Shown piece after piece: positions 4,101 to 23,373 of a stretch of 43,080 nucleotides of DNA. The notes below the pieces were generated by a model that was not told where the DNA came from, did no database searches, and saw nothing but the letters and a program-made list of their open reading frames with translations. The translations under genes and the position numbers were made by a program. Source of the DNA: a virus; IMG/VR virus record IMGVR_UViG_3300037129_000025, positions 1 to 43,080 of that record, one strand, 5' to 3'. How positions within the stretch are numbered: the stretch's first letter is position 1; each line of letters opens with the position of its first letter.

Positions 4101-5360
4101 AAGTGGATACGGCAGATGCAGGAGATCGCCAGTAGCGACAAACCCTTGGAAACAGGGGAAGAAGCTACAGGAGAGAATTTCCGCCAGAAATTCGGAGTGC
4201 TTGGCCAGAGAGCTATCAGAGAATGGCTGGATGCGTCTGCAAGAAAAGCGAACACAGATGACTGGGGCGGGTTCAGACTCGTAAACTGGTTCGGGGAAAA
4301 CTTAGGCGTAACAAAACTCGCTGATCCTTTCGTGTATCTTAAACACTACATAAATCTGATAAATGGCGCGGCATATGTGCAGCATCATGTCATTAGCGGC
4401 CTCCACGAGTTGCTTATGAATCCGCTATGCGCCAGAGCCGCTGCTGCTGACCCCGTGGTGCAGGAAGGAGCGCGTGGTGTAGATTCCGGGATGAACTTTA
4501 GTAAGGACGCGCTTGGCACAGTAAAAACTCTCGCACTAAAACCTATCACCGACATAAGTATGCAAGCCCGTGGTGCTACTTGGGCTGGCGGTGTCCAGAA
4601 ATGGTACGTTCAAAATGCTCCTAGCGAGAAGATAGACTGGCAGGATATCCATCCCGATGCGGTAGATTACGCAAGAAAAATCACCGATAAGTCACAGCCC
4701 GCTGCGCACGTTATGGCGGGCTCTCTCGCAAAAATCTCAGGGCTTGGTGTCGGAGGCTCCCCGGGTTTCTCGGCGGCAGTATTTCGCTTTATGAACCCAC
4801 TATTTACAAAGTGGGGGATGGTAAACGATATGGCGAGGCTGTTAAAAACTGACCCCGCAGCAGCCTCCTCGATAGCAGGCTCTCTTCTTTGTGCCGCTCT
4901 TGCGGAAGCAGGGATGAACCATGGGAGAAAAGTTACTTATGCCGCGGCAGGGGCCTTACTTTCTGGACGCGCACAGCAAAAGAGAGAAGAAGATCCGATA
5001 TGGTGTGACACATTGAAATACCTCGCAAAGGACTATCCGCCAGCGGGGTTGCTCCTTAACAGTTACGAGTATGGTTCTGTCCCCGCTGGGCCGGTACTGG
5101 ATACGGTAAAGCAAATGTCTGACGATATTCACAACTCCAATACCACGAAGAAACTGGAAGGAAAATTAAAGTGGGCGCTTATTACGGGGGTGAAAGCATC
5201 CCAGATGCTCGTACCGCAACCCTTCATGGGAAATCTCCCCCAGTTCATTTCTCACACATGGAAAATTGGCGGAGACAAAGCACCGGAGTGGGAGAAGGAA
5301 CTCAAGTCAGAACTGGACTGGGAGAAAGACCTGAAAAATTCTATGAAAGCCCCGAAGTAA
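1122..5360 (+). CDS. Very large putative DNA-ejection / internal virion protein (1412 aa)
   Basis: This is the longest gene in the window and the last of the rightward late operon; its stop overlaps the converging leftward gene by 20 bp. The start at 1122 is 3 bp after the preceding stop. The N-terminal 100 residues are polar. Residues 150-350 are Ala/Gly-rich with amphipathic stretches. A long charged coiled coil follows at about 460-620 (KLKQKVGELKEERDWREG and similar). The last third mixes aromatic and small hydrophobic segments. Giant internal proteins of this composition in the last virion gene position are typical of podoviral ejection proteins (P22 gp16/gp20 or T7 gp16 type). I see no lytic transglycosylase motif. 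Confidence 0.7.
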   Translation: MAQQDDDQSGLSPSADIQISPPAQDQKPGFFDALAQGVGEGASEVGLHQTEGAGVAAQSITDMVPNSFEDVVSNGISPLINPFFAPLMQHMPGHKEAVQKAQKAWAPGIFNNGITDLFRRGIAANKFTDTYYKGEDLAKLVSKAGQQQKLDIQTTGGLAAISPVNLAATATRALTNDAWRDVAKYGANRIAYHASKIGAMMLEGALTRVPQVAVPGAFALESAGRNAEALKDRQDITYEDKKKIVLMKAAADGFMAHVMTAIPGISNEIMPFATKLIGTMGRTGERALQEGIKKFLSESVLQGLPRDAINGFVNMASNQIANICIDQYYKVQEWHIRQAIIATVQAGAFGALVQSILGPAGRMMTKAQIYSGMDTWNDLTTKKLAIEGYMTGVPDEKGMIITVPHITDGVVVEKLATYNYALKNGLWRDADSVYRHIVHFNDGLKAWNAKGGLGLPPLSKRELADKIKWGGKTDEELKAEGITAQQIKEARGETQVDKLKQKVGELKEERDWREGEIKITNAIQDAKAAKEAHDIKEGFEEKIKELKYGQKWDEAEKNTAQDKVRKFVHEHLPIAERGKFLTDIQKANDPFDLGKTFAKVLDAREAWQKKTVISNIKDLASEVKNSTSIDVGYRRQILNLLDLVNKTAPREETIKKLQATKDYIASEKAAGREVQLPQYIYERMRVLNRTNLSSMNLNNLKDFYNEMADLKRTGEHLADANASVYNIEKQNMASRLAKAQVEPFGPTEVDTKKSQPIGTQPNLWEKAKTKWMQVAKGFDWRYANKSFMNAAHFFDSFGPDVYSLTKAPYSTKNGNYEARYKPLEAEAEKVQKDLNITPESNTRIKVWAALQQEGGREKLLKGYSGKELETQGKRLDAFQQEGLKPNEQKAYDWLRQQYEAIHPEYADHRRVVYNDEVHYQKNFSPLTKDFSQMDENEIYESMHENNPYALQKNVSDKHAISRTDFNGAAGTSLDAFGDFKKYMSCVLYDIEVGKWIRQMQEIASSDKPLETGEEATGENFRQKFGVLGQRAIREWLDASARKANTDDWGGFRLVNWFGENLGVTKLADPFVYLKHYINLINGAAYVQHHVISGLHELLMNPLCARAAAADPVVQEGARGVDSGMNFSKDALGTVKTLALKPITDISMQARGATWAGGVQKWYVQNAPSEKIDWQDIHPDAVDYARKITDKSQPAAHVMAGSLAKISGLGVGGSPGFSAAVFRFMNPLFTKWGMVNDMARLLKTDPAAASSIAGSLLCAALAEAGMNHGRKVTYAAAGALLSGRAQQKREEDPIWCDTLKYLAKDYPPAGLLLNSYEYGSVPAGPVLDTVKQMSDDIHNSNTTKKLEGKLKWALITGVKASQMLVPQPFMGNLPQFISHTWKIGGDKAPEWEKELKSELDWEKDLKNSMKAPK

Positions 5361-6597
5361 TTTTTCTGTCCAGTAATGCCAGTATCACGATCACAAGGCA
5401 CACAGTCTTTGCAAGGTAAAACGGAAAATGCGCCAGAGACAAAATAGCGATAGCGATAGCACTCCCCATAAGCGCGACAGTCTCCCGGTCTTTCAGAAAC
5501 GTATGCCGATAGCGGCGGCATATATTCAGCATATAACCTCCGATAAGAAACAGCCCCGGAAAGCCAAAGATCAAAAAGACCTGTAGGTATTCATTGTGGC
5601 AGTGACCCCAGATATATCCGTTCAGCCCCTGACCCCGTAAATCGTCCTGGATATTTCCGATAATGGGGAATATGTCCGGCTCTTTATAAAACACGTTCAC
5701 CAGACGATTAGTATTCATCCCCTCCATTTTTGCGATATTCAGGATTTTTTTCTTTAGGACATCTTGGTTCTCTGGCTTTACATTCACCTGAAAATAGTAA
5801 TGCCTGCCTTCCCGTGAGAACTCCAGAAACATTGTCCGGCAGTCATTCCCTACCCCAACCCCTGTCCACATACTGTGGAATGCTTTGCTCGCCACCATCG
5901 GCCACACGTGCAGACGGCGGGAAAGCTCATCGGACTTATACCCCTGCTTCACTATCGGGATAAAGGCAAGCAGGATAATTGCTACAGCCGTGAAAAACTC
6001 CCGCCTTTTTGGGTATACGCTCCACACATAAAAAAATACTCCGACAATAAGCGCAAGCACAGAGAAGGCGGATTTAGAGATAAAAATCCCTAGGAGGGAT
6101 ACGACTAACAACGCCGGATGTATGGTCATAATAATGGGGGCTGTCATAGCAAAGATCATCCCAAGGAAGCTCGGAAGCCCAAGCATCCCATCCGGTTCTA
6201 ATAATTGCTGAGAAAAATAGGGGAGGTGTAGCTTCTGAAACAGGCAAATAAAAAGGTTGAATACGAGCAGGGCAAGAATTACCCGCGGATATTTTTTTCC
6301 TCTGTAGTAGGTAAATACAAAATGGTAAAGGAGACAGCCGATTGATACCGGCAGAACGTAATCTATCCACGCCACAGTTTGCGCGGGGAGAAGGAATTTG
6401 TGGAGAAGTGTGAGAAGCAGAAATATCCCCACCCAACGGTTACACAGCACACAGGCGAGCATGAGTGCTACCACGTAGTGCATGAAAAAAAGCTGTTGGT
6501 TTGTGAAATCCGGCTGCGGGCCGAACCAGAAGATAGGTGTTACGCCGATGAGGAGTAGCACGAGATCCAGTTTAAACTGTCCTATCTGTAATTTCAT
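5341..6597 (-). CDS. O-antigen polymerase/ligase-like membrane protein (Wzy/WaaL type, 418 aa)
   Basis: A polytopic membrane protein with about ten hydrophobic segments. The late periplasmic loop is large and carries the signature GHCHNEYLQVFLIFGFPGL, the H-N-x-x-L motif of the Wzy_C (O-antigen ligase/polymerase) family, followed by the last two or three membrane helices. Members link O-antigen repeats or transfer them to lipid A-core in the inner membrane. The start at 6597 is chosen because GGAG lies 8 bases upstream and the ATG overlaps the stop of a 28-residue peptide (ATGA); an in-frame ATG 63 bp upstream lacks a good ribosome site. It is the last gene of the leftward operon. A role in altering the host surface, for example against superinfection, is inferred. 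Wzy and WaaL cannot be told apart by eye. Confidence 0.85.
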   Translation of the reverse strand: MKLQIGQFKLDLVLLLIGVTPIFWFGPQPDFTNQQLFFMHYVVALMLACVLCNRWVGIFLLLTLLHKFLLPAQTVAWIDYVLPVSIGCLLYHFVFTYYRGKKYPRVILALLVFNLFICLFQKLHLPYFSQQLLEPDGMLGLPSFLGMIFAMTAPIIMTIHPALLVVSLLGIFISKSAFSVLALIVGVFFYVWSVYPKRREFFTAVAIILLAFIPIVKQGYKSDELSRRLHVWPMVASKAFHSMWTGVGVGNDCRTMFLEFSREGRHYYFQVNVKPENQDVLKKKILNIAKMEGMNTNRLVNVFYKEPDIFPIIGNIQDDLRGQGLNGYIWGHCHNEYLQVFLIFGFPGLFLIGGYMLNICRRYRHTFLKDRETVALMGSAIAIAILSLAHFPFYLAKTVCLVIVILALLDRKITSGLS

Positions 6598-6680
6598 CGG
6601 TGACTCCATAGGTCGATGGTGAGAATGAAAAGTGTAAAGAACATTCCTGCAATAAAACAAACTAGCTCTCTGGCAATCAT
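6594..6680 (-). CDS. 28-residue single-span membrane peptide coupled to the O-antigen polymerase
   Basis: The ATG at 6680 follows a strong GAGGAG site and overlaps the stop of the upstream nuclease gene (ATGA). Its own stop overlaps the ATG of the polymerase gene, again as ATGA, so the three are translationally coupled. The peptide has a short charged start (MIARE), about 18 hydrophobic residues (VCFIAGMFFTLFILTIDLW) and a polar end (SHR). Phage D3 encodes a small hydrophobic inhibitor of the host O-antigen polymerase (Iap) next to its own Wzy-beta; the arrangement here is similar, but homology cannot be judged from so short a sequence. Confidence 0.65.
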   Translation of the reverse strand: MIARELVCFIAGMFFTLFILTIDLWSHR

Positions 6681-7222: not shown

Positions 7223-7300
7223 TTACTGTCCCACTGGTAAATGCGCTGCCCACCAGAGAAAGGCGATCAACAATACAAGACAGATTAAAAAACGGATCAT
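7223..7300 (-). CDS. 25-residue hydrophobic membrane peptide
   Basis: The ATG at 7300 overlaps the TGA of the DNA polymerase gene (ATGA). Almost the whole peptide is one hydrophobic helix (MIRFLICLVLLIAFLWWAAH) ending LPVGQ. There is no separate ribosome site, so translation would depend on the polymerase gene. It is one of four tiny single-span peptides in this genome (others at 6594, 23844 and 41903). Function unknown. Confidence 0.5.
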   Translation of the reverse strand: MIRFLICLVLLIAFLWWAAHLPVGQ

Positions 7301-9213
7301 TTTTTATACCTTTTTCCTTCCCAAGTTTCTACTTTTAGCGGTAAATCCTTTGCCCACTCAGGCGGCTTTTCTAAATATGTTTCTGGCTTAAAATCCATGC
7401 CCTGATCTATTTCCCATACCACCTCATCATGCACCGTCATTACAATTCCCCGTGAAAGCTGAAGCATGTGGAAAGCCATGATGTCTCTGCTAATAGCCTG
7501 ACAAGTATTCTCAAACAGCGTCCCACCCCAAATGGTTTCTTTTTCCCATTTTTTTGTTTTTGCGTTAATGGACATATAAGAAAGTTTCAGGCTACCACCT
7601 TCATAACTGATACTCGGTTGGTTATATGCCATGCGCCGACCACTCGGCAAGATACACCACAAAGCCTGCTTCTCGTAAACCCATTTCAGTTTTCTGAAGT
7701 TCAGAGTTTTTCCTTTATTTTGCATAGCGACAATAGCCGCACGTTCAATATCATACCAACATTGTTTTACCGCAGGGAACTTCATACGATAGGCAGTTAC
7801 GGCGGTCAGAGCCATTTCTTCTTCTCGCCTCAAAAATTCTATATCCGTTTCTTTTGGTTTTCTATCCGCAAGTTTTACGCCCCATTCATGGCACGTTCCT
7901 AAAAATCTTTCTGCCCCCATTCCGTATGAGCATCCTAAAATTGTGGTCTTTCCTAAAAACCTTTGGTCTTTAGAAATTTCTTTTGCTGTTTTTTTACGGT
8001 AGATATCCATAGCCATATCCACATAGGTATCTACTCCATCCCTGAACATCTGGAGTCCGCGCTTTTCATCAGCAATCCAAAAAGCTATCCGGCACTCTAT
8101 GGCGTTGTAATCTGCAGCCACTAACTTTTTCCCTTCCCCCGCTACCAGCATCCCACGGATGCAAGATGATACCGCGCCCATCACGCTGTCATAAAAAACG
8201 TCCAGAATTTTCCAATCCTTTTTCTCCATAAGTTTTATGCAAAAATCCACATCTTTTATGCTTGGTTTTGCGAGGTTCTGAAGTTGGACACCTTGCGCTG
8301 CCCATCTGCCGGTAGACGCACCGTAGTAGCGGAAGTTGTCGCGGATACGACCATCTGGGGCAACCCTATCCAGCATCCCCTGAAACTTGGCTGTGGAGGT
8401 TTTAGCCACCTGTTGCCTGATCTCCAGCACTTTCCGCACATCTGGCTCTAAATCCATGGCCAGAAGGGTCGTAACGTCCCTTTTTGCGAGTTTTTCGCTA
8501 GAAACGCCCTTAGAAGCCAGCCATTTCAGCGTCCTGTCCCTCTGGGTGACGCTTTCTACCGCACCCCCTGTCAGGATGGGTATTTGGGCGGTAAGGTGGC
8601 TAGAATAGGCATTTACGATGGCCAGCGCGTTCTGACAGGCGGGAATATCAAGCGCCACACCCCTGTGATTTATTTCTTGATCTAGGAGCCAGATTTGTCG
8701 TTCTTGTGGCGATAGATCACCAAGGCGCTGAGATAACATACGTTCAACAGCCACATCAGTACGGCAATACTCGTAAAGTTTTTCCAGATCATCTTTTTCC
8801 CACTCCTTTGCTTTTGTCATTTTTAACATTAGCCGACTGCCAGACATATCTTTTTGTAACGGAAGCTTTACAACCTTTGCCGCCATCTCCAAAGAGCGCG
8901 GAAGCCCACGGGCGGCGCATTTCGCGGCAGAGCAGTACCACTGGTCTGGGCGCAGTTTCGGCCAGCCGTAGCGAGGAACCATAATATTTTCCCAGATGCT
9001 GCGTTCGAAAAAAGCGTTGTGAGCCTCTAGTTGTTCATTTCCTTCTGCATAGGGTCTTGCTTCTCCGGGAGTCCAGAGTTGAATATCCTTTTCATCATCC
9101 CAAGTGTACGCCATACAGAAAACATCTGTTGTCGGATGCAGTGAGTAGTTCCATGCTCCGATCTTTTTCAGGTCTGCTTGACTGTGCGTTTCAAAATCTA
9201 TGAACAGTGTCAT
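7297..9213 (-). CDS. Family A DNA polymerase with 3'-5' exonuclease domain (638 aa)
   Basis: Replicative polymerase. The N-terminus is a DnaQ-like exonuclease: MTLFIDFETHS (the D-x-E motif), with a later Y-C-R-T-D motif near residue 150. The C-terminal two thirds hold polymerase motif A (LVAADYNAIECRIAFW, D-Y-x-x-I-E-x-R), motif B (QRFLGKTTILGCSYGMG, Lys...Tyr-Gly) and motif C (VMTVHDEVVWEI, H-D-E). The length of about 640 residues is normal for the phage polymerases found with DUF2800/DUF2815 genes, both of which lie upstream here. The ATG at 9213 overlaps the stop of a 42-residue frame (ATGA). Confidence 0.96.
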   Translation of the reverse strand: MTLFIDFETHSQADLKKIGAWNYSLHPTTDVFCMAYTWDDEKDIQLWTPGEARPYAEGNEQLEAHNAFFERSIWENIMVPRYGWPKLRPDQWYCSAAKCAARGLPRSLEMAAKVVKLPLQKDMSGSRLMLKMTKAKEWEKDDLEKLYEYCRTDVAVERMLSQRLGDLSPQERQIWLLDQEINHRGVALDIPACQNALAIVNAYSSHLTAQIPILTGGAVESVTQRDRTLKWLASKGVSSEKLAKRDVTTLLAMDLEPDVRKVLEIRQQVAKTSTAKFQGMLDRVAPDGRIRDNFRYYGASTGRWAAQGVQLQNLAKPSIKDVDFCIKLMEKKDWKILDVFYDSVMGAVSSCIRGMLVAGEGKKLVAADYNAIECRIAFWIADEKRGLQMFRDGVDTYVDMAMDIYRKKTAKEISKDQRFLGKTTILGCSYGMGAERFLGTCHEWGVKLADRKPKETDIEFLRREEEMALTAVTAYRMKFPAVKQCWYDIERAAIVAMQNKGKTLNFRKLKWVYEKQALWCILPSGRRMAYNQPSISYEGGSLKLSYMSINAKTKKWEKETIWGGTLFENTCQAISRDIMAFHMLQLSRGIVMTVHDEVVWEIDQGMDFKPETYLEKPPEWAKDLPLKVETWEGKRYKK

Positions 9214-15239: not shown

Positions 15240-16149
15240 CTTTATCTCCTTTGTTAAAACTACCCGTCCACACTATGCCATCTTTTGAATGTAAACGCCA
15301 CAATTTTCCGTCAAAACTCGGAACTAATCCCTTCTTCCAGAGTTTTATTGCAGGAGAAAAATCATATTTGTATTTTACATCCACGAAATCGGAGCAGTAA
15401 GCCCTCATGCTGGCCCCCACGCTGGCCCTCACGCTGTCCCACACGCTGGCCCTCACGCTGTCCCACACGCTGGCCCCCACGCTGGCCCTCACGCTGGCCC
15501 CCACGCTGGCCCTCACGCTGTCCCTCACGCTGTCCCTCACGCTGGCCCTCACGCTGTCCCACACGCTGGCCCACACGCTGTCCCACACGCTGTCCCTCAC
15601 GCTGTCCCTCATGCTGGCCCCCACGCTGGCCCTCACGCTGTCCCACACGCTGGCCCCCACGCTGTCCCTCACGCTGGCCCACACGCTGGCCCCCACGCTG
15701 GCCCTCACGCTGTCCCACACGCTGGCCCACACGCTGTCCCACACGCTGTCCCTCACGCTGTCCCACACGCTGGCCCCCTTCTTCACAAGAGTTATTTCAG
15801 CATCGGTTATATTAGGCGGTTCGATTTTAAACGGATGGATAATCTCCCGAATCCGTAATGGTTCCACGACTTTTTTGAAGTCCAGACTCCTGCAGAACTT
15901 CTTAATTTTCTCTGAATCATCTTTCGTATTCAACTGGTCGATTTCAAAACGCTTCGTGAACGGGTCGTACTCGTACTTATTCAGCTTGTCCTCCTTCTCA
16001 TTCTTAAACCCGAAGTAATCAGCGATCGAGGTGTGACTATCCGGTTCGTAATCTTTTAGAGTTCCACCAAGAACTTTCTTCCGAAGCTTCCAATCGAAGT
16101 AAATTGGTTTACCGTTCCCCGTTGAGACTAAGCTTAAAAACTTGCACAT
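15205..16149 (-). CDS. Protein with a 30-unit tetrapeptide repeat (A/D)SV(W/R/G) (314 aa)
   Basis: The start at 16149 (MCKFLSLVSTGNGKPIYFDW) is chosen for its GGGAGGG site; an in-frame ATG 30 bp upstream has none. An N-terminal domain of about 125 residues (DSHTSIADYFGF, KEDKLNKYEYDPFTKRFEID, PPNITDAEITLVKK) is followed by about 30 tandem tetrapeptides and a 55-residue C-terminal domain (FSPAIKLWKKGLVPSFDGKLWRL). Proteins with the same domain order and SVWDSV-type repeats occur in other phage and metagenome sequences (from memory); no function is known to me. The repeat may form an elongated, regular structure. It ends 35 bp inside the HNH gene. Confidence 0.8.
   Translation of the reverse strand: MCKFLSLVSTGNGKPIYFDWKLRKKVLGGTLKDYEPDSHTSIADYFGFKNEKEDKLNKYEYDPFTKRFEIDQLNTKDDSEKIKKFCRSLDFKKVVEPLRIREIIHPFKIEPPNITDAEITLVKKGASVWDSVRDSVWDSVWASVWDSVRASVGASVWASVRDSVGASVWDSVRASVGASMRDSVRDSVWDSVWASVWDSVRASVRDSVRDSVRASVGASVRASVGASVWDSVRASVWDSVRASVGASMRAYCSDFVDVKYKYDFSPAIKLWKKGLVPSFDGKLWRLHSKDGIVWTGSFNKGDKDVEKTISSSKS
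15409..15768. repeat. Coding minisatellite: 30 tandem 12-bp units
   Basis: Every unit fits GCTG[GT]CCC[ACT]CA[CT] on the + strand, without a single indel or other substitution. On the coding (-) strand each unit is GTG-NGG-GMC-AGC, encoding Val-(Gly/Arg/Trp)-(Ala/Asp)-Ser, with Met for Val in one complete unit (15601-15612). Five of the six possible combinations occur; the Gly-Asp unit never does. A 60-bp block, 15541-15600, recurs exactly at 15697-15756. A degenerate half-unit flanks each end. Confidence 0.97.
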
Positions 16150-17734: not shown

Positions 17735-18235
17735 CTACTTTTTCAACAAACTCATTCCGTACTCTAAAATTTGTTTTTGCATCTCTTCTTTTGCCGCCAC
17801 CCACGCCCACGCCGCCGCCGCCGCCCACGCCCACGCCCGCGCCGCCGCCGCCGCCCACGCCGCCGCCCACGCCGCCGCCTCCGCTTCCGCCGCACACGCC
17901 GCCGCCCGCGCCGCCGCCCGCGCATTGACTTTATTTTTTTTCGTGGGTTTTTCGCAGGCAAGCTTCGCAGCTTTTATCGCTTGTCTTGGTCTTTTATCAT
18001 CTGGATATTTTTTCTCGTAAATATCTAGAACTTGTTCAGCGGCAAAAATGGCGTATTGGCAATACTGTTTTCTGTTCATGGTTCGAACGATAAGCCAATT
18101 AGCCCAATCATATTTTTTCTGAGAGATGAGGGATTGTAAAACCGAAAGCGATTCTGTTTCTTTTTGGTCTTGGAACCATTGTAGACCTTCTGAACATGCA
18201 TATTTTTGGGCGAGCCATTTTGCGGATATTTTCAT
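17735..18235 (-). CDS. Imm-5-like protein with alanine-rich repeat (166 aa)
   Basis: The first 90 residues (KYACSEGLQWFQDQKETES, YDWANWLIVRTMNRKQYCQYAIFAAEQVLDIYEKKYPDDKRPRQAI) match the Imm-5-like domain pattern (C...G..WF, WA-x-WL-x-R, A-I-x-A-A-E-x-V-L-x-I-Y-E-K-x-Y-P-x-D-x-R-P-R-x-A-I-x-A-A). Next comes an Ala-rich helix of about 45 residues broken by Trp and Arg (AAAWAAAWAAAAARAWAW), then a charged end (EEMQKQILEYGMSLLKK). The family was named for resemblance to toxin immunity proteins and is frequent in phages and prophages; its role is not established. Ribosome site GAAAGGA. Confidence 0.75.
   Translation of the reverse strand: MKISAKWLAQKYACSEGLQWFQDQKETESLSVLQSLISQKKYDWANWLIVRTMNRKQYCQYAIFAAEQVLDIYEKKYPDDKRPRQAIKAAKLACEKPTKKNKVNARAAARAAACAAEAEAAAWAAAWAAAAARAWAWAAAAAWAWVAAKEEMQKQILEYGMSLLKK
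17800..17928. repeat. GCG-codon (Ala) repeat tract
   Basis: About 43 codons made almost only of GCG, TGG and CGG on the - strand, read as Ala with interspersed Trp and Arg. Nearly all Ala codons in the tract are GCG. The trinucleotide-based low-complexity DNA leaves long open frames on the other frames and strand, which are spurious. Confidence 0.85.
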
Positions 18236-18287: not shown

Positions 18288-18316
18288 AGTATATCTTATG
18301 TCTGATCATCTGTCAA
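18288..18316 (-). promoter_or_regulatory. Sigma70-type promoter for the Imm-5-like/SNF2 genes
   Basis: On the - strand TTGACA (18316-18311), 17-base spacer, TATACT (18293-18288). Consensus -35 and near-consensus -10. It lies over the last codons of the lytic transglycosylase gene, about 53 bp before the Imm-5-like start. Confidence 0.75.
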
Positions 18317-18727
18317 CCTATGATATTTTTCTAAAAAATCTCTGGTTTCTTTTGGAAGAGCATCCATGTTACCACCTTTATTCGCCCATTTGCGCCAATG
18401 ACCATATCCCCAATTCCAGGCAATCAATATCTCGTCCACCGTATCGCACCTCTGCGCCAGCCAATCGAGATACCAGTCCGCGACAAACTTTGCCATATTT
18501 GGCTCAAATAATGCCTGAATCGTAAATGGATTTTGTGGATCATGTTCCTTGAATTGTCGAAAAACAACCGGAGTGATCTGGTACAGCCCCCGCGCCTGCG
18601 TTCTCTTATTATAAGCCTTCGGGTTATTACTGCTTTCTATTTCAGCCAACGCTTTCATATTTATCGGGTGCGCGAACGCAGATCCGCACAACAGCAAAAA
18701 ACTAACTAAGAAAATCATCCTCTTCAC
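18296..18727 (-). CDS. Secreted lytic transglycosylase (SLT/lysozyme-like, 143 aa)
   Basis: Signal peptide MKRMIFLVSFLLLCGSAFA with a clean A-F-A cleavage site before HPINM. The mature domain is a minimal SLT fold: ALAEIESSNNPKAYN (catalytic Glu in E-S-S-N/G-N-P), RTQARGLYQITP (G-L-Y/M-Q-I), and EILIAWNWGYGHWRKW (the A-x-N-x-G motif). Such enzymes cleave the beta-1,4 glycan linkage of peptidoglycan in the periplasm. It is placed in the leftward early block, overlapping the VapE gene by 26 bp, away from late genes. It could act as a Sec-exported endolysin or in entry; no holin is adjacent. Confidence 0.85.
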   Translation of the reverse strand: MKRMIFLVSFLLLCGSAFAHPINMKALAEIESSNNPKAYNKRTQARGLYQITPVVFRQFKEHDPQNPFTIQALFEPNMAKFVADWYLDWLAQRCDTVDEILIAWNWGYGHWRKWANKGGNMDALPKETRDFLEKYHRLTDDQT

Positions 18728-20813
18728 TTATCACCTCCACAGGTCTGCACCACATTTTTTTTAACTGCCCGTCCACTCGTACAGGCTTATGCTCCCACTT
18801 CAATTCTCTCCCAAGAATATGCCCGATATCTCGCTGCGCCATCCTGTTATAGTGTATTGGCATCCCTAAAAGGCATTTTACAAATATCTCTTGGCCCGTG
18901 GTTTTATCTCTTTTCGCGCCAAACTCATCACTATCCAGCCATTCCTTTATATGTCCTGCGCGATCATCCCGCGCCCGGCGTTCCTCCTGCACAATTTCCG
19001 CCTCCAGTTCTTCCGCGTCATCCAGATAAAGAAGTTCACCGGCCTTATAGCGACAAACTGCCTCCGCAAACAGCTGGTCGCGTACAGATTCTAGGCCGGT
19101 GACATCTAACTTATCCCCGACAATTACAGGCCAAAAACGCCTGTTGCCGGTCTGGTCACGCATATAACCTTCGCCTCCGCTATCGGGATTATACGTACCA
19201 ATAAAAATACATTTTCGCGGGAAGGTCTTTTCCATGCGCTCGTAACTTAAGCGGGCAACATCTGTCTCACGGCTAACAAATGCTTTCATGTGATCCGCGT
19301 CTGCCTTATTCCTAAAGGTTAGTTCAGCTTCTTCTATGATCCACGCCCCGCGCATATAGGCGATCGTGTCTTTCTCCAGAGGATTTATTGCCATACTCCT
19401 ATACCACGTACCGCCCAATGCCTTTACCATCCGGCTCTTGCCCGCCCTTTGCCTGCCCTCTAGGATGAGCATATAATCAAACTTTATCCCAGGGTGGTAT
19501 ATTCGCGCCACCGCCGCGACAAGCGTCTTTGCCCCTACCGCTTGCGTATAGCCGCTATCCGGCACTTGGCAGTATTTTGTAAGCCATTTGTCTATTCTCT
19601 TTACCCCATCCCACTTTATGCTTTCCAGATAGTTTTTCACGGGATGGTTTTTGTTGCGCCACGCACACGCGACAATCGCCTCGTGAATTATCTGTGTGGG
19701 GATCTCAAACTTATAAGCTGTGGTCAGGTAGGATTTGCACAATATTTCATCATGGTCTGTCCACTCCGCGCCCTCGTCCGGCGGGTTACGCTGATGCCAC
19801 GGCATCTTGGATATCACCATGATCTTATCTGTAAATTCGTCATACGCCAGCTTCTTAAAAAACGGGGCTTTGCTCGTGAGGAAAAAGCGTATGCAATTTG
19901 CGAGAGTTTTTCTATACGCGCCGGAGGCGTTACGTTCTAAACTACCAAGCAATTCATCATCTGTTTTACCTGCGACTGCCTCAAAATCCGTTAGCGGGTT
20001 ATCCTGCCCTTGTGAGCCGGTAGAATAGCGATAGGCATTCCGCACTTTGGTCTTTAACTCATCTCTGCTCCACGGGGGGGCGCATTTCGCGTTATACGGC
20101 CCCAGGAGACAGGATAACGTGGTTTCCCATGATAGCCCTAGATCGCGCCCCTTCTGGGCTACTGCGTATGCCGTAGCGTCCCCCTGTTGCCCTTCCACAC
20201 AGGGCTGCGCTTGTAAAAGGTAGCTTTCATATCGCTCTACGTTTGCCGGGGAGTCATCGTATACGGGTTTTAGCGCGGGAATTTCTTTATGCGGTTCTAT
20301 TTCATTCTGCGGTTTCAGGATCTGCAATAAGAGAAATGTGCTGGCTTCCAGAGAGTTTTTTGGCATCCCGTGGTGATAAGTGTAAAGTGACTTGCTGATC
20401 GGATGAATAGAACCCGCACCCACAACGTAATGATTTTGAGACAAAAATTGTAGTCCCGGAAACTCGCTCAAGCGTGATCTTGTTAAAAAATCTTTCGGTT
20501 TTTTTAGATATATGTGCCATCCTCCACCTCCTGTTTTTACTGTGAAAGTTTTAGAGAGTAAATCTTTTTGCCCGATTTTATCCAAGAAGCGTGCGAGTGG
20601 ATCGTCATCTTTTTCGTAAGCGCGGGGGTCACAATCTATGACGAGATCGGTGGGCTGGAGGACAACGCCAAAATTCTCTGGATAATCCCGGCGTTCAAAA
20701 TCCAGTTCGAAAAGGGATTTTTGCCAGTTTCTTCGTTTGGCGACTTTGCCCGATAGGGGGGTGAGAATATATCCGGCTGAAATGTAGTCGGACATAGCGG
20801 AAAATTTGTCCAC
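18702..20813 (-). CDS. Primase-polymerase / VapE-type helicase fusion (703 aa)
   Basis: The N-terminal 170 residues are a primase-polymerase (AEP) domain: NFGVVLQPTDLVIDCDPRAYE (D-x-D metal site) and FTVKTGGGGWHIYLK (the GGGG-x-H motif), then GLQFLSQNHYVVGAGSIHP. A linker with primase C-terminal-like features (GDATAYAVAQKGRDLG) leads to a VapE/SF3-like ATPase: LILEGRQRAGKSRMVKAL (Walker A), MRGAWIIEEAEL (Walker B), SYERMEKTFPRKCIFIGTYN and GNRRFWPV. Such fusions prime and unwind DNA at phage origins. The GTG at 20813 lies 8 bp after the HTH gene and is chosen by spacing. Confidence 0.93.
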   Translation of the reverse strand: MDKFSAMSDYISAGYILTPLSGKVAKRRNWQKSLFELDFERRDYPENFGVVLQPTDLVIDCDPRAYEKDDDPLARFLDKIGQKDLLSKTFTVKTGGGGWHIYLKKPKDFLTRSRLSEFPGLQFLSQNHYVVGAGSIHPISKSLYTYHHGMPKNSLEASTFLLLQILKPQNEIEPHKEIPALKPVYDDSPANVERYESYLLQAQPCVEGQQGDATAYAVAQKGRDLGLSWETTLSCLLGPYNAKCAPPWSRDELKTKVRNAYRYSTGSQGQDNPLTDFEAVAGKTDDELLGSLERNASGAYRKTLANCIRFFLTSKAPFFKKLAYDEFTDKIMVISKMPWHQRNPPDEGAEWTDHDEILCKSYLTTAYKFEIPTQIIHEAIVACAWRNKNHPVKNYLESIKWDGVKRIDKWLTKYCQVPDSGYTQAVGAKTLVAAVARIYHPGIKFDYMLILEGRQRAGKSRMVKALGGTWYRSMAINPLEKDTIAYMRGAWIIEEAELTFRNKADADHMKAFVSRETDVARLSYERMEKTFPRKCIFIGTYNPDSGGEGYMRDQTGNRRFWPVIVGDKLDVTGLESVRDQLFAEAVCRYKAGELLYLDDAEELEAEIVQEERRARDDRAGHIKEWLDSDEFGAKRDKTTGQEIFVKCLLGMPIHYNRMAQRDIGHILGRELKWEHKPVRVDGQLKKMWCRPVEVISEEDDFLS

Positions 20814-20823
20814 GGAGATCTTT

Positions 20824-21006
20824 CTACTTTAAAAGTTTTTGCACGTTTTTCTTTGCGAGAAATTCCTGTACTTTATCCTCATCAAACAGCCACACCCGCC
20901 CGCGCTTGACTGCCGGGATTTTGCCCGCCAGTGCCAGCTTGGAAAGATACTGCGCGTTATAGCCGAGTTTTTCCGCCATTTTTGGCGTACTGATAAGACT
21001 GAACAT
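20824..21006 (-). CDS. Excisionase/MerR-like helix-turn-helix protein (60 aa)
   Basis: Reads MFSLISTPKMAEKLGYNAQYLSKLALAGKIPAVKRGRVWLFDEDKVQEFL, the classic small winged HTH of the excisionase (helix_turn_helix_17) type: a first helix, a recognition helix (NAQYLSKLALAGKIP), and the R-G-R-x-W-x-F-D wing. It is the first gene after a strong promoter (21040-21067) and 10 bp before the primase gene, so it may regulate early transcription or bind the repeated motif TTTGCCCG found around it. AAAGGAGG precedes the ATG. No integrase accompanies it, so a classical excision role is unlikely. Confidence 0.85.
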   Translation of the reverse strand: MFSLISTPKMAEKLGYNAQYLSKLALAGKIPAVKRGRVWLFDEDKVQEFLAKKNVQKLLK

Positions 21007-21979: not shown

Positions 21980-22690
21980 CTATGCCGCGATCTTAAACGC
22001 CCGCTTGCAATATCTGACAAGCGAAGACTCCATTTGCCGCCGCGCGATATCGACAATAAAGCCGGAGTTTTCCCGGTCCTTTACGTTCGCGGGATTCCAT
22101 GCAAGCGCGAACATGTTTTTTGCTATCATGGAAATCGGGAAAGATTCACAAGCGGCAACAAGTAAAGAAGGGACAAAATACTTTTCCCTTACATGTTGCC
22201 GGACGTGATCTCCGCCACGGCCCAGCGGCCTTTCCCCATTTTCTGTTTTCATATAGCAGCCCCAGCAATCGCCGCCGGACGGCGCCGGGATTTCATAGGC
22301 AAAAAACTCGTCCATGAATTCCCGGCAATACTCACGAATTGCTTTTACATCTTTTTTGCTTTTGTCCGCCGCCTTTACCGGTAAAGCGCCGTATACCTTG
22401 CCACTTTTAACGTAGCAGCCGTCCTGATATACCTTGTCTCCGATATACCAAACGCCTTTTTCCTGGCGGATCGACAATGGCCCGTATTCATTCATACGCG
22501 CTTTTGTCGTTACCGTCCGCCAACCGCCGGAATTATAAACAGTTTTTTTATCTGGTGTAAACGTGAGAATGTTTGTCTCGTGAAGGCGCAAAGCAATAGC
22601 GCCGCCTTCTAGCGCTTTTAAATACGTGTTATTTGCTATTTTGCGCGATTCCTTTCCTCCTAGTTTTTCTACTGCTATTTTGTGGTCCAT
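21980..22690 (-). CDS. Widespread phage/plasmid hypothetical protein (236 aa), first gene of the leftward block
   Basis: The N-terminal half carries a pattern seen in many phage and plasmid proteins: RKIANNTYLKALEGGAIALRLHETNILTFTPDKKTVYNSGGWRTVTTKARMNEY, where I-A-N-N-T, R-L-H-x-T and NSGGWRTVTTK-x-R are the conserved elements. The rest includes a Cys pair (GGDCWGCYM) and a helical end. I know no function. It is the promoter-proximal gene of the early block; its start lies 40 bp from the -10 box at 22730-22735, and AAAGGGGG precedes the ATG. Confidence 0.75.
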   Translation of the reverse strand: MDHKIAVEKLGGKESRKIANNTYLKALEGGAIALRLHETNILTFTPDKKTVYNSGGWRTVTTKARMNEYGPLSIRQEKGVWYIGDKVYQDGCYVKSGKVYGALPVKAADKSKKDVKAIREYCREFMDEFFAYEIPAPSGGDCWGCYMKTENGERPLGRGGDHVRQHVREKYFVPSLLVAACESFPISMIAKNMFALAWNPANVKDRENSGFIVDIARRQMESSLVRYCKRAFKIAA

Positions 22691-22729: not shown

Positions 22730-22758
22730 ATTCTAATCTATATACGGCTATATGTCAA
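22730..22758 (-). promoter_or_regulatory. Sigma70-type early leftward promoter
   Basis: On the - strand TTGACA (22758-22753), 17-base spacer, TAGAAT (22735-22730). It is 25 bp from the nearest GGTAACA site (22783-22789, reverse orientation), so a protein bound to the repeats could control it. Confidence 0.75.
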
Positions 22759-22782: not shown

Positions 22783-23102
22783 TGTTACCCCTGAAAACTA
22801 CGGTAACATACTACGGTAACACTATAGAAAATGTGCAATGTTACCTATGTTACCGTAGTATATTATTATTATTATATTTTATAGCACCCTGTACGGATTA
22901 TAGGGCTTCTAGGGGTTTATAGCAAACTACGGTAACAGAGGTAACAACGGTAACATTTTCCCTAACTGCTTGGTTTATAAGGTCTTACAACAACGGTAAC
23001 AACGGTAACATTATTATAGGACGTTGCGTTAATGCGTGTTTTTATAGCATTAATTGTCATATCTTTATGTACCAGTATGCTTTAGAGGTAACAGAGGTAA
23101 CA
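22783..23102. repeat. Iteron-like array: twelve GGTAACA heptamers
   Basis: Forward copies begin at 22802, 22815, 22931, 22940, 22949, 22995, 23004, 23087 and 23096. Reverse copies (TGTTACC) begin at 22783, 22839 and 22848. Five neighbour spacings are exactly 9 bp (22839/22848, 22931/22940/22949, 22995/23004, 23087/23096). The usual preceding bases are AC or AG. Regular short direct repeats in an AT-rich intergenic region next to the early promoter resemble initiator-binding iterons or a multi-site operator. Confidence 0.92.
22808..22861. repeat. 14-bp perfect inverted repeat spanning two heptamers
   Basis: ATACTACGGTAACA at 22808-22821 is the exact reverse complement of 22848-22861, with 26 bases between. 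The arms include one forward and one reverse GGTAACA copy. Confidence 0.9.
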
Positions 23103-23179: not shown

Positions 23180-23235
23180 TACGTCCTATAATCTTTAGGC
23201 TATGAACGCATGCGCGTGTAGATTTCATTGACACT

Positions 23236-23282
23236 ACCCGGGCGGGTACCCCGGCACCTCGGGGGGTGGGCGGGGTGCGGCC
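23236..23282. other. GC-rich island upstream of the small terminase, candidate pac/cos region
   Basis: About 47 bases of strongly GC-rich DNA (acccgggcgggtaccccgg then ggggggtgggcggggtgcgg) lie between AT-rich segments, 146 bp before the terS start. Packaging sites commonly lie in or just upstream of terS. No direct cut-site evidence is visible. Confidence 0.35.
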
Positions 23283-23345: not shown

Positions 23346-23373
23346 TTGACAATTTTTAAAAAATTTTTATACT
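23346..23373 (+). promoter_or_regulatory. Sigma70-type rightward (late) promoter
   Basis: TTGACA (23346-23351), 16-base spacer of A/T runs, TATACT (23368-23373). It lies 55 bp before the terS start and is the only strong rightward promoter seen in the control region. Confidence 0.8.

Follow-up and report, generated by a model that had tools for sequence, protein, structure and literature searches.

A GGTAACA iteron array between divergent gene blocks of an unclassified phage as a probable replication origin for its own Prim-Pol/VapE protein

Gene blocks and repeat array of the window

The window is the whole stretch of DNA that was analysed, the 43,080 nucleotides of the IMG/VR record IMGVR_UViG_3300037129_000025. 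Its central part is occupied by a 738-bp intergenic region from which two gene blocks diverge (Table 1). The leftward block encodes a Prim-Pol/VapE protein, an SNF2-type helicase, a DUF2800/PD-(D/E)XK nuclease, a Gp2.5-like ssDNA-binding protein and a family-A DNA polymerase. The rightward genes include those for the large terminase and the major head protein. A sequence-only reading of this DNA had described, in the intergenic region, twelve GGTAACA heptamers, nine direct and three inverted, with five neighbour spacings of 9 bp, and all of them proved exact. The gene-free setting near the early promoter was also correctly described, and the array is placed between two predicted divergent promoters.

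Table 1. Features of the array region and of the genes discussed in the text.
Feature	Position	Strand	Remarks
Iteron array, 12 exact GGTAACA (9 +, 3 −)	22783..23102	both	clusters phased at 9 bp; proposed replication origin
AT-rich stretch, candidate unwinding element	22855..22892		candidate function suggested by sequence and AT profile
Predicted leftward early promoter, TTGACA-17-TAGAAT	22730..22758	−	consensus scan; outside the array
Predicted rightward promoter, TTGACA-16-TATACT	23346..23373	+	consensus scan; outside the array
Prim-Pol + VapE (AAA+/SF3-type) helicase, 703 aa	18702..20813	−	PF05272, 1.2e-67; PF09250, 2.3e-10; proposed array-binding initiator
Predicted C-terminal winged helix, residues ~640-703	18702..18896	−	AlphaFold2; helix 657-670, wing 674-689; proposed iteron reader
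HTH_17 excisionase-like protein (HTH60), 60 aa	20824..21006	−	just 5' of the initiator gene; rival binder
236-aa ORF, first of the leftward block	21980-22690	leftward	array upstream of the block
Family-A DNA polymerase	7297-9213	leftward block	the phage's own

The array starts with a reverse copy (22783), two forward copies (22802 and 22815) and a reverse doublet (22839/22848). Then follow the AT-rich stretch, a forward triplet (22931/22940/22949) and two forward doublets (22995/23004 and 23087/23096). The spacing within the clusters is near-helical. The AT-rich stretch is flanked by the inverted doublet (22839-22854, − strand) and the forward triplet (22931-22955, + strand).

The heptamer is found 16 times in the whole window, whereas dinucleotide shuffles of it average 3.5 copies and never exceed 9. 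First-order Markov resamples of the 738-bp region (n = 5000) contain 0.17 copies on average and three at most, which places the array far above chance. Since this intergenic region holds no one-mismatch copies of the heptamer, the array is clean. A de novo heptamer search of the window returned GGTAACA as the strongest mixed-orientation cluster; overall it is exceeded only by CACGCTG (15417-15765), a coding repeat confined to one strand. A 12-bp tandem repeat of 31 copies (GCCCTCACGCTG) is located at 15401-15776, within a 324-aa leftward ORF that encodes a repetitive protein. Near the 3' end of the initiator gene (18702) no second GGTAACA cluster was found, only one lone copy at 18367, and an Rfam scan of the window returned no RNA family.

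Cumulative GC skew had been proposed as a check for an origin. The minimum lies at approximately 23.0-24.0 kb, in the array region, but it is confounded with the direction of transcription: gene orientation flips at the same place and the skew therefore does not discriminate. Between the array and the rightward promoter, a short and very GC-rich segment with G runs (GGGGGGTGGGCGGGG, 23218-23282) stands out from its AT-rich surroundings and is possibly a G-quadruplex or a transcription element.

The candidate initiator

No RepA/Rep_3 initiator was detected among the scanned proteins of the window (some small ORFs fall outside the scan). The sequence-only reading had taken the repeats for an iteron array bound cooperatively by an initiator, which is well supported. 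It had also supposed that no initiator was recognisable and that the binder might be new; this part does not stand, given that the leftward operon encodes Prim-Pol/VapE. The replication operon of the window includes, with this protein, its own AAA+/SF3-type helicase and primase.

The 703-aa VapE protein is homologous to the PDB entry 7pds (E 9e-51), whose titles are 'Similar to D. nodosus vapE' and 'The structure of PriRep1 with dsDNA'. For the last 64 residues of the window protein, AlphaFold2 predicts a winged helix, most of which has pLDDT >90. Compared with 7pds by Foldseek, this model gave a match of probability 0.96 with an E-value of 0.15, which is not significant, and it is used only as supportive for this reason. 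The C-terminal winged helix of VapE is probably the reader of GGTAACA, a specificity that is supported by the co-variation in relatives described below.

Two other binders had been put forward. The HTH protein encoded at 20824 loses ground, as its homologue is found in only three VapE loci and the VapE genes of other phages carry equivalent 3' arrays. For the 236-aa protein, no credible match was found in the relatives that carry arrays, and it was rejected as a conserved binder.

GGTAACA arrays in other viral contigs

The pattern (GGTAACANN)x3 was found in at least 119 stretches of viral contigs, and the same pattern read backwards, used as control, in 12. Clusters of at least five copies in mixed orientation are present in 86 of the 119 fetched loci versus none of the 12 reversed-motif control loci. 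Most of these mixed arrays are short, 80-350 bp, and the 3' end of an ORF of 570-970 aa is often adjacent. The other triplet matches are largely 9-nt coding repeats, on one strand and within large ORFs. In six loci (L008, L021, L036, L043, L074 and L080), a 990-aa ORF contains GGTAACA repeats that share this 9-nt period; these are coding and constitute a trap for pattern searches.

Pfam domains were searched in the window VapE and in 28 large ORFs from the neighbourhood of GGTAACA arrays (29 sequences in total), and VapE (9), DUF5906 (9), DUF927 (7), Prim-Pol (5) and HTH_56 (5) were identified. Among 40 array-bearing records, VapE is present in 11, DUF927 in nine others and DUF5906 alone in four more (two below the family cut-off), which gives 24 of 40. 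None of the three was detected in the other 16 array loci, many of which are on short contigs. The coding-repeat controls (n = 10) gave one D5_N match and, in another control, a sub-threshold DUF5906 match.

GGTAACA is thereby seen to recur beside VapE, DUF927 and DUF5906/D5 initiators, including that of an E. coli P2-type satellite. In this satellite (locus L219; NZ_CP042250, 6244-6423), eight GGTAACA copies in both orientations begin 27 bp past the stop of the DUF927 gene. The element carries the kwaAB defence genes, an annotated P2-family capsid protein and an ogr/Delta-like protein, and DNA similar to its DUF927 gene is found in 447 of 5426 complete E. coli genomes. The literature search, which covered few subscription papers, returned no description of GGTAACA as an iteron; owing to this coverage, the novelty of the wider heptamer code is uncertain.

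Arrays beside VapE genes

The association was also examined in the reverse direction. VapE loci were gathered by protein with the repeats ignored; the query alignment, however, was built from array-bearing proteins. Arrays were called de novo as the most clustered heptamer, and as a positive control the caller recovered the annotated P4 ori and crr type 1 repeats. An array was found in 61 of the 72 VapE loci with enough downstream sequence, 51 of them within −150 to +290 bp of the VapE stop codon. Within about 1 kb at the VapE 3' end, a single-heptamer array of mixed orientation is present in 51 of 72 loci, versus none of 64 5'-side regions and none of 72 shuffled controls. In the named phages Clostridioides phiCDKH02, Paenibacillus Bob, Pseudomonas vB_Pae_U5 and Marinobacter PS3, the primase/VapE gene is also followed by an array, either immediately or at a distance of a few hundred bp. 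The array is directly 3' of the gene in most VapE loci, while in the window it lies about 2 kb upstream. The heptamer varies by lineage and many fit loosely G-NNN-ACA (GGTAACA, GGAAACA, GGCAACA, GGTGACA, GTTGACA, GGATACA and TGGGACA), although several heptamers of VapE loci do not fit it.

A full-length search of viral contigs with the window VapE alone gave no relative; with the alignment of array-bearing proteins, relatives were obtained. In the nearest two complete ones, G001 (terminal repeat of 113 bp) and G003 (20 bp), VapE is 41.0% and 39.8% identical to that of the window, respectively, and VapE, SNF2, DUF2800, SSB and polymerase are common to the window at 35-49% identity. In each of the two, an array of mixed orientation lies in the divergent region that precedes the replication operon, with 11 copies of CTTACAT/CCTTACA in G001 and six of ACCTTAC in G003. 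The place of the array is conserved in these relatives and the heptamer is changed. The sequence-only reading had suggested looking in related phages for the same repeats at the same place: the position is kept, but the exact GGTAACA is not, being replaced by the CCTTACA type. In three further full-length relatives (G004, G005 and G006) no clear array was found by this method, which may miss degenerate iterons.

Wing and iterons switch together

Two of the VapE loci, L131 and L132, are 98.2% identical in DNA over 9.5 kb. Their VapE proteins hardly differ before the final ~22 residues, which form the wing (WERYDKR... versus WEPHSSH...). In the ~300 bp after VapE, all nine iterons change from GGTAACA to GTAGACA while keeping their positions, and the identity returns to 97-100% just past the array. 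Because wing and array are contiguous, linkage through a single recombination event could add to this co-switch. The switch region spans ~6200-6650, and the in-register change of the array might reflect import from a donor of the same layout. In a second pair, L197 and L204, the VapE proteins are 98-100% identical over most of their length until the wing, and the iterons are CGGTAACA versus CGGCAACA.

Within one subclade, a Gln after WERY accompanies GTGACA in five of five cases and an Arg or Lys accompanies other iterons in nine of nine (Fisher p = 5e-4). This pairing spans two helicase lineages. The linkage of wing and array is looser in this group, since six of the 14 arrays are 1.8-3.9 kb from the VapE gene. 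Globally, iteron similarity was not significantly correlated with similarity of the C-terminus once that of the helicase was taken into account (partial Mantel test, r = 0.05, p = 0.20), with a noisy metric and ambiguous iteron orientation. The evidence for co-variation of wing and iterons is therefore strong locally and without significance in the global test.

Proposed mechanism and alternative readings

The array is very probably an iteron origin of the P4/SaPI type that the phage's own Prim-Pol/VapE would bind through its C-terminal winged helix, open and prime. We infer that VapE binds, unwinds and primes in this phage and that the array is active as an origin; the mechanism is modelled on those described in the literature for P4 alpha, SaPI Rep and SCCmec Cch2 (PMC4234260, PMC7581432). 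The winged helix would bind the phased heptamers, each heptamer being an address matched to the wing, and VapE would assemble or load at the array as one or more helicase rings. The rings would subsequently melt the neighbouring AT-rich DNA, and the Prim-Pol domain would prime synthesis for the family-A polymerase. With opposed iteron clusters on either side of the AT-rich stretch, two rings might load facing each other.

A second role for the same protein could be added to this mechanism rather than compete with it. VapE bound at the origin might also autoregulate the promoter of its own operon, for which the predicted leftward −35 (22758) is suitably placed, some 25 bp from the array's first copy on the − strand (22783), which is upstream of it. 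Such dual use is possible, though on the unlikely side: the majority of VapE loci have their array at the 3' end of the gene, away from the promoter.

A purely transcriptional role, in which the array is an operator that binds a regulator such as the 60-aa HTH_17 protein and controls the divergent early and late promoters, is improbable. It is true that predicted divergent promoters flank the array, that VapE directly follows an HTH60 homologue in L125, L126 and L127, and that the left operon of P4 also has an excisionase-like gene. On the other hand, the predicted −35/−10 boxes fall outside the array, comparable arrays at the VapE 3' end are present in loci where no HTH60 homologue was detected, and the partner of the iterons in the L131/L132 co-switch is the VapE wing. 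The 60-aa HTH gene precedes VapE in G001 and G003; in the other VapE loci searched, no HTH60 homologue was found apart from that of L126.

Short repeats of a similar kind also occur in parS-like and recombinase arm sites. A partition or arm-site array is nevertheless very improbable here, since neither ParB nor an integrase appears among the scanned proteins of the window (some small ORFs are outside the scan) and the linkage to helicase-initiators in other phages would be left unexplained. Many GGTAACA triplets elsewhere are coding repeats in large ORFs (L008, L024 and L036), but an artefact of coding or composition, with 9-nt repeats encoding for instance Gly-Asn-x, has a negligible chance: coding repeats are one-stranded and inside ORFs, and for the window array the coding explanation is refuted by its intergenic and strand-mixed nature.

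Beyond the window, the VapE and DUF927 initiators, and probably the D5/DUF5906 ones, may share one origin grammar, a proposal to which we give an even chance. The origin would be a strand-mixed array of a single heptamer, loosely G-NNN-ACA, with its variable bases set by the wing. Wing and array would be exchanged together, which would switch the replication address in one step and possibly allow escape from competition or satellites. The window would represent one allele, in which the array has moved to the divergent control region.

Comparison with known systems

The P4 ori resembles the window array in several aspects. Both consist of short iterons in both orientations (in P4, the annotated 'ori type 1 repeats', GGTGAACA on one strand, at 9-11 bp spacing), and both lie between divergent operons, as do the arrays of G001 and G003. 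The P4 alpha protein is a primase-helicase that is described as binding the ori repeats by a winged helix (PMC4234260). The P4 repeat sequence, however, differs from GGTAACA, and a second array (crr) adjoins the 3' end of the alpha gene, whereas only one array was found in the window. The primase of alpha is of the bacterial TOPRIM type (PMC4234260) and that of the window is a Prim-Pol. Unlike P4, the window is a tailed-phage contig with a terminase, a major head protein and its own DNA polymerase.

The SaPI Rep protein is, like the window protein, a VapE-type helicase, and the window protein is homologous by sequence to 7pds. SaPI Rep reportedly recognises its origin, which is made up of several short repeats, through the C-terminal domain (Ubeda et al. 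2007, according to PMC7581432). In layout, iteron sequences aside, the two differ: the SaPI origin is directly downstream of rep and the window array is ~2 kb upstream of its gene. By analogy, the window system may work like the P4 ori with regard to place and iteron style, and like SaPI Rep with regard to the protein. The array is assigned to the general class of initiator-helicase iteron origins, and not to a P4 or SaPI origin proper, because the downstream layout of SaPI and the crr array of P4 are both absent.

The SCCmec proteins Cch and Cch2 are initiator helicases whose C-terminus binds DNA and whose genes are directly followed by iterons (PMC7581432). DUF927 proteins and the HTH_56 domain of Cch are found next to GGTAACA arrays; the iteron reported for Cch2 is nonetheless a different one, AAGTG in three copies (PMC7581432). 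The E. coli satellite L219 is similar to the window in having GGTAACA copies in both orientations. It differs in the helicase family (DUF927), in the position of the array directly 3' of the gene and in the kind of element.

Implications

A likely origin and initiator can be named for an unclassified phage. The origins of many VapE and DUF927 phages and satellites would become readable from sequence, as one-heptamer arrays beside the initiator gene. The near-identical natural pairs L131/L132 and L197/L204, which differ in wing and iterons, make the recognition between initiator and origin experimentally simple to address. Wing/iteron pairs offer a route to predicting replication compatibility among phages, satellites and SaPI-like islands.

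Other genes of the window

Two further genes on the − strand deserve mention. One (5341-6660) encodes a 439-aa protein with an O-antigen ligase domain (Wzy_C, PF04932), which is unusual for a phage and is possibly a surface-modifying gene. The other (17735-18235), among the early genes, encodes an Imm5_like putative immunity protein (PF21805) and adjoins an SLT transglycosylase gene (18296-18727).
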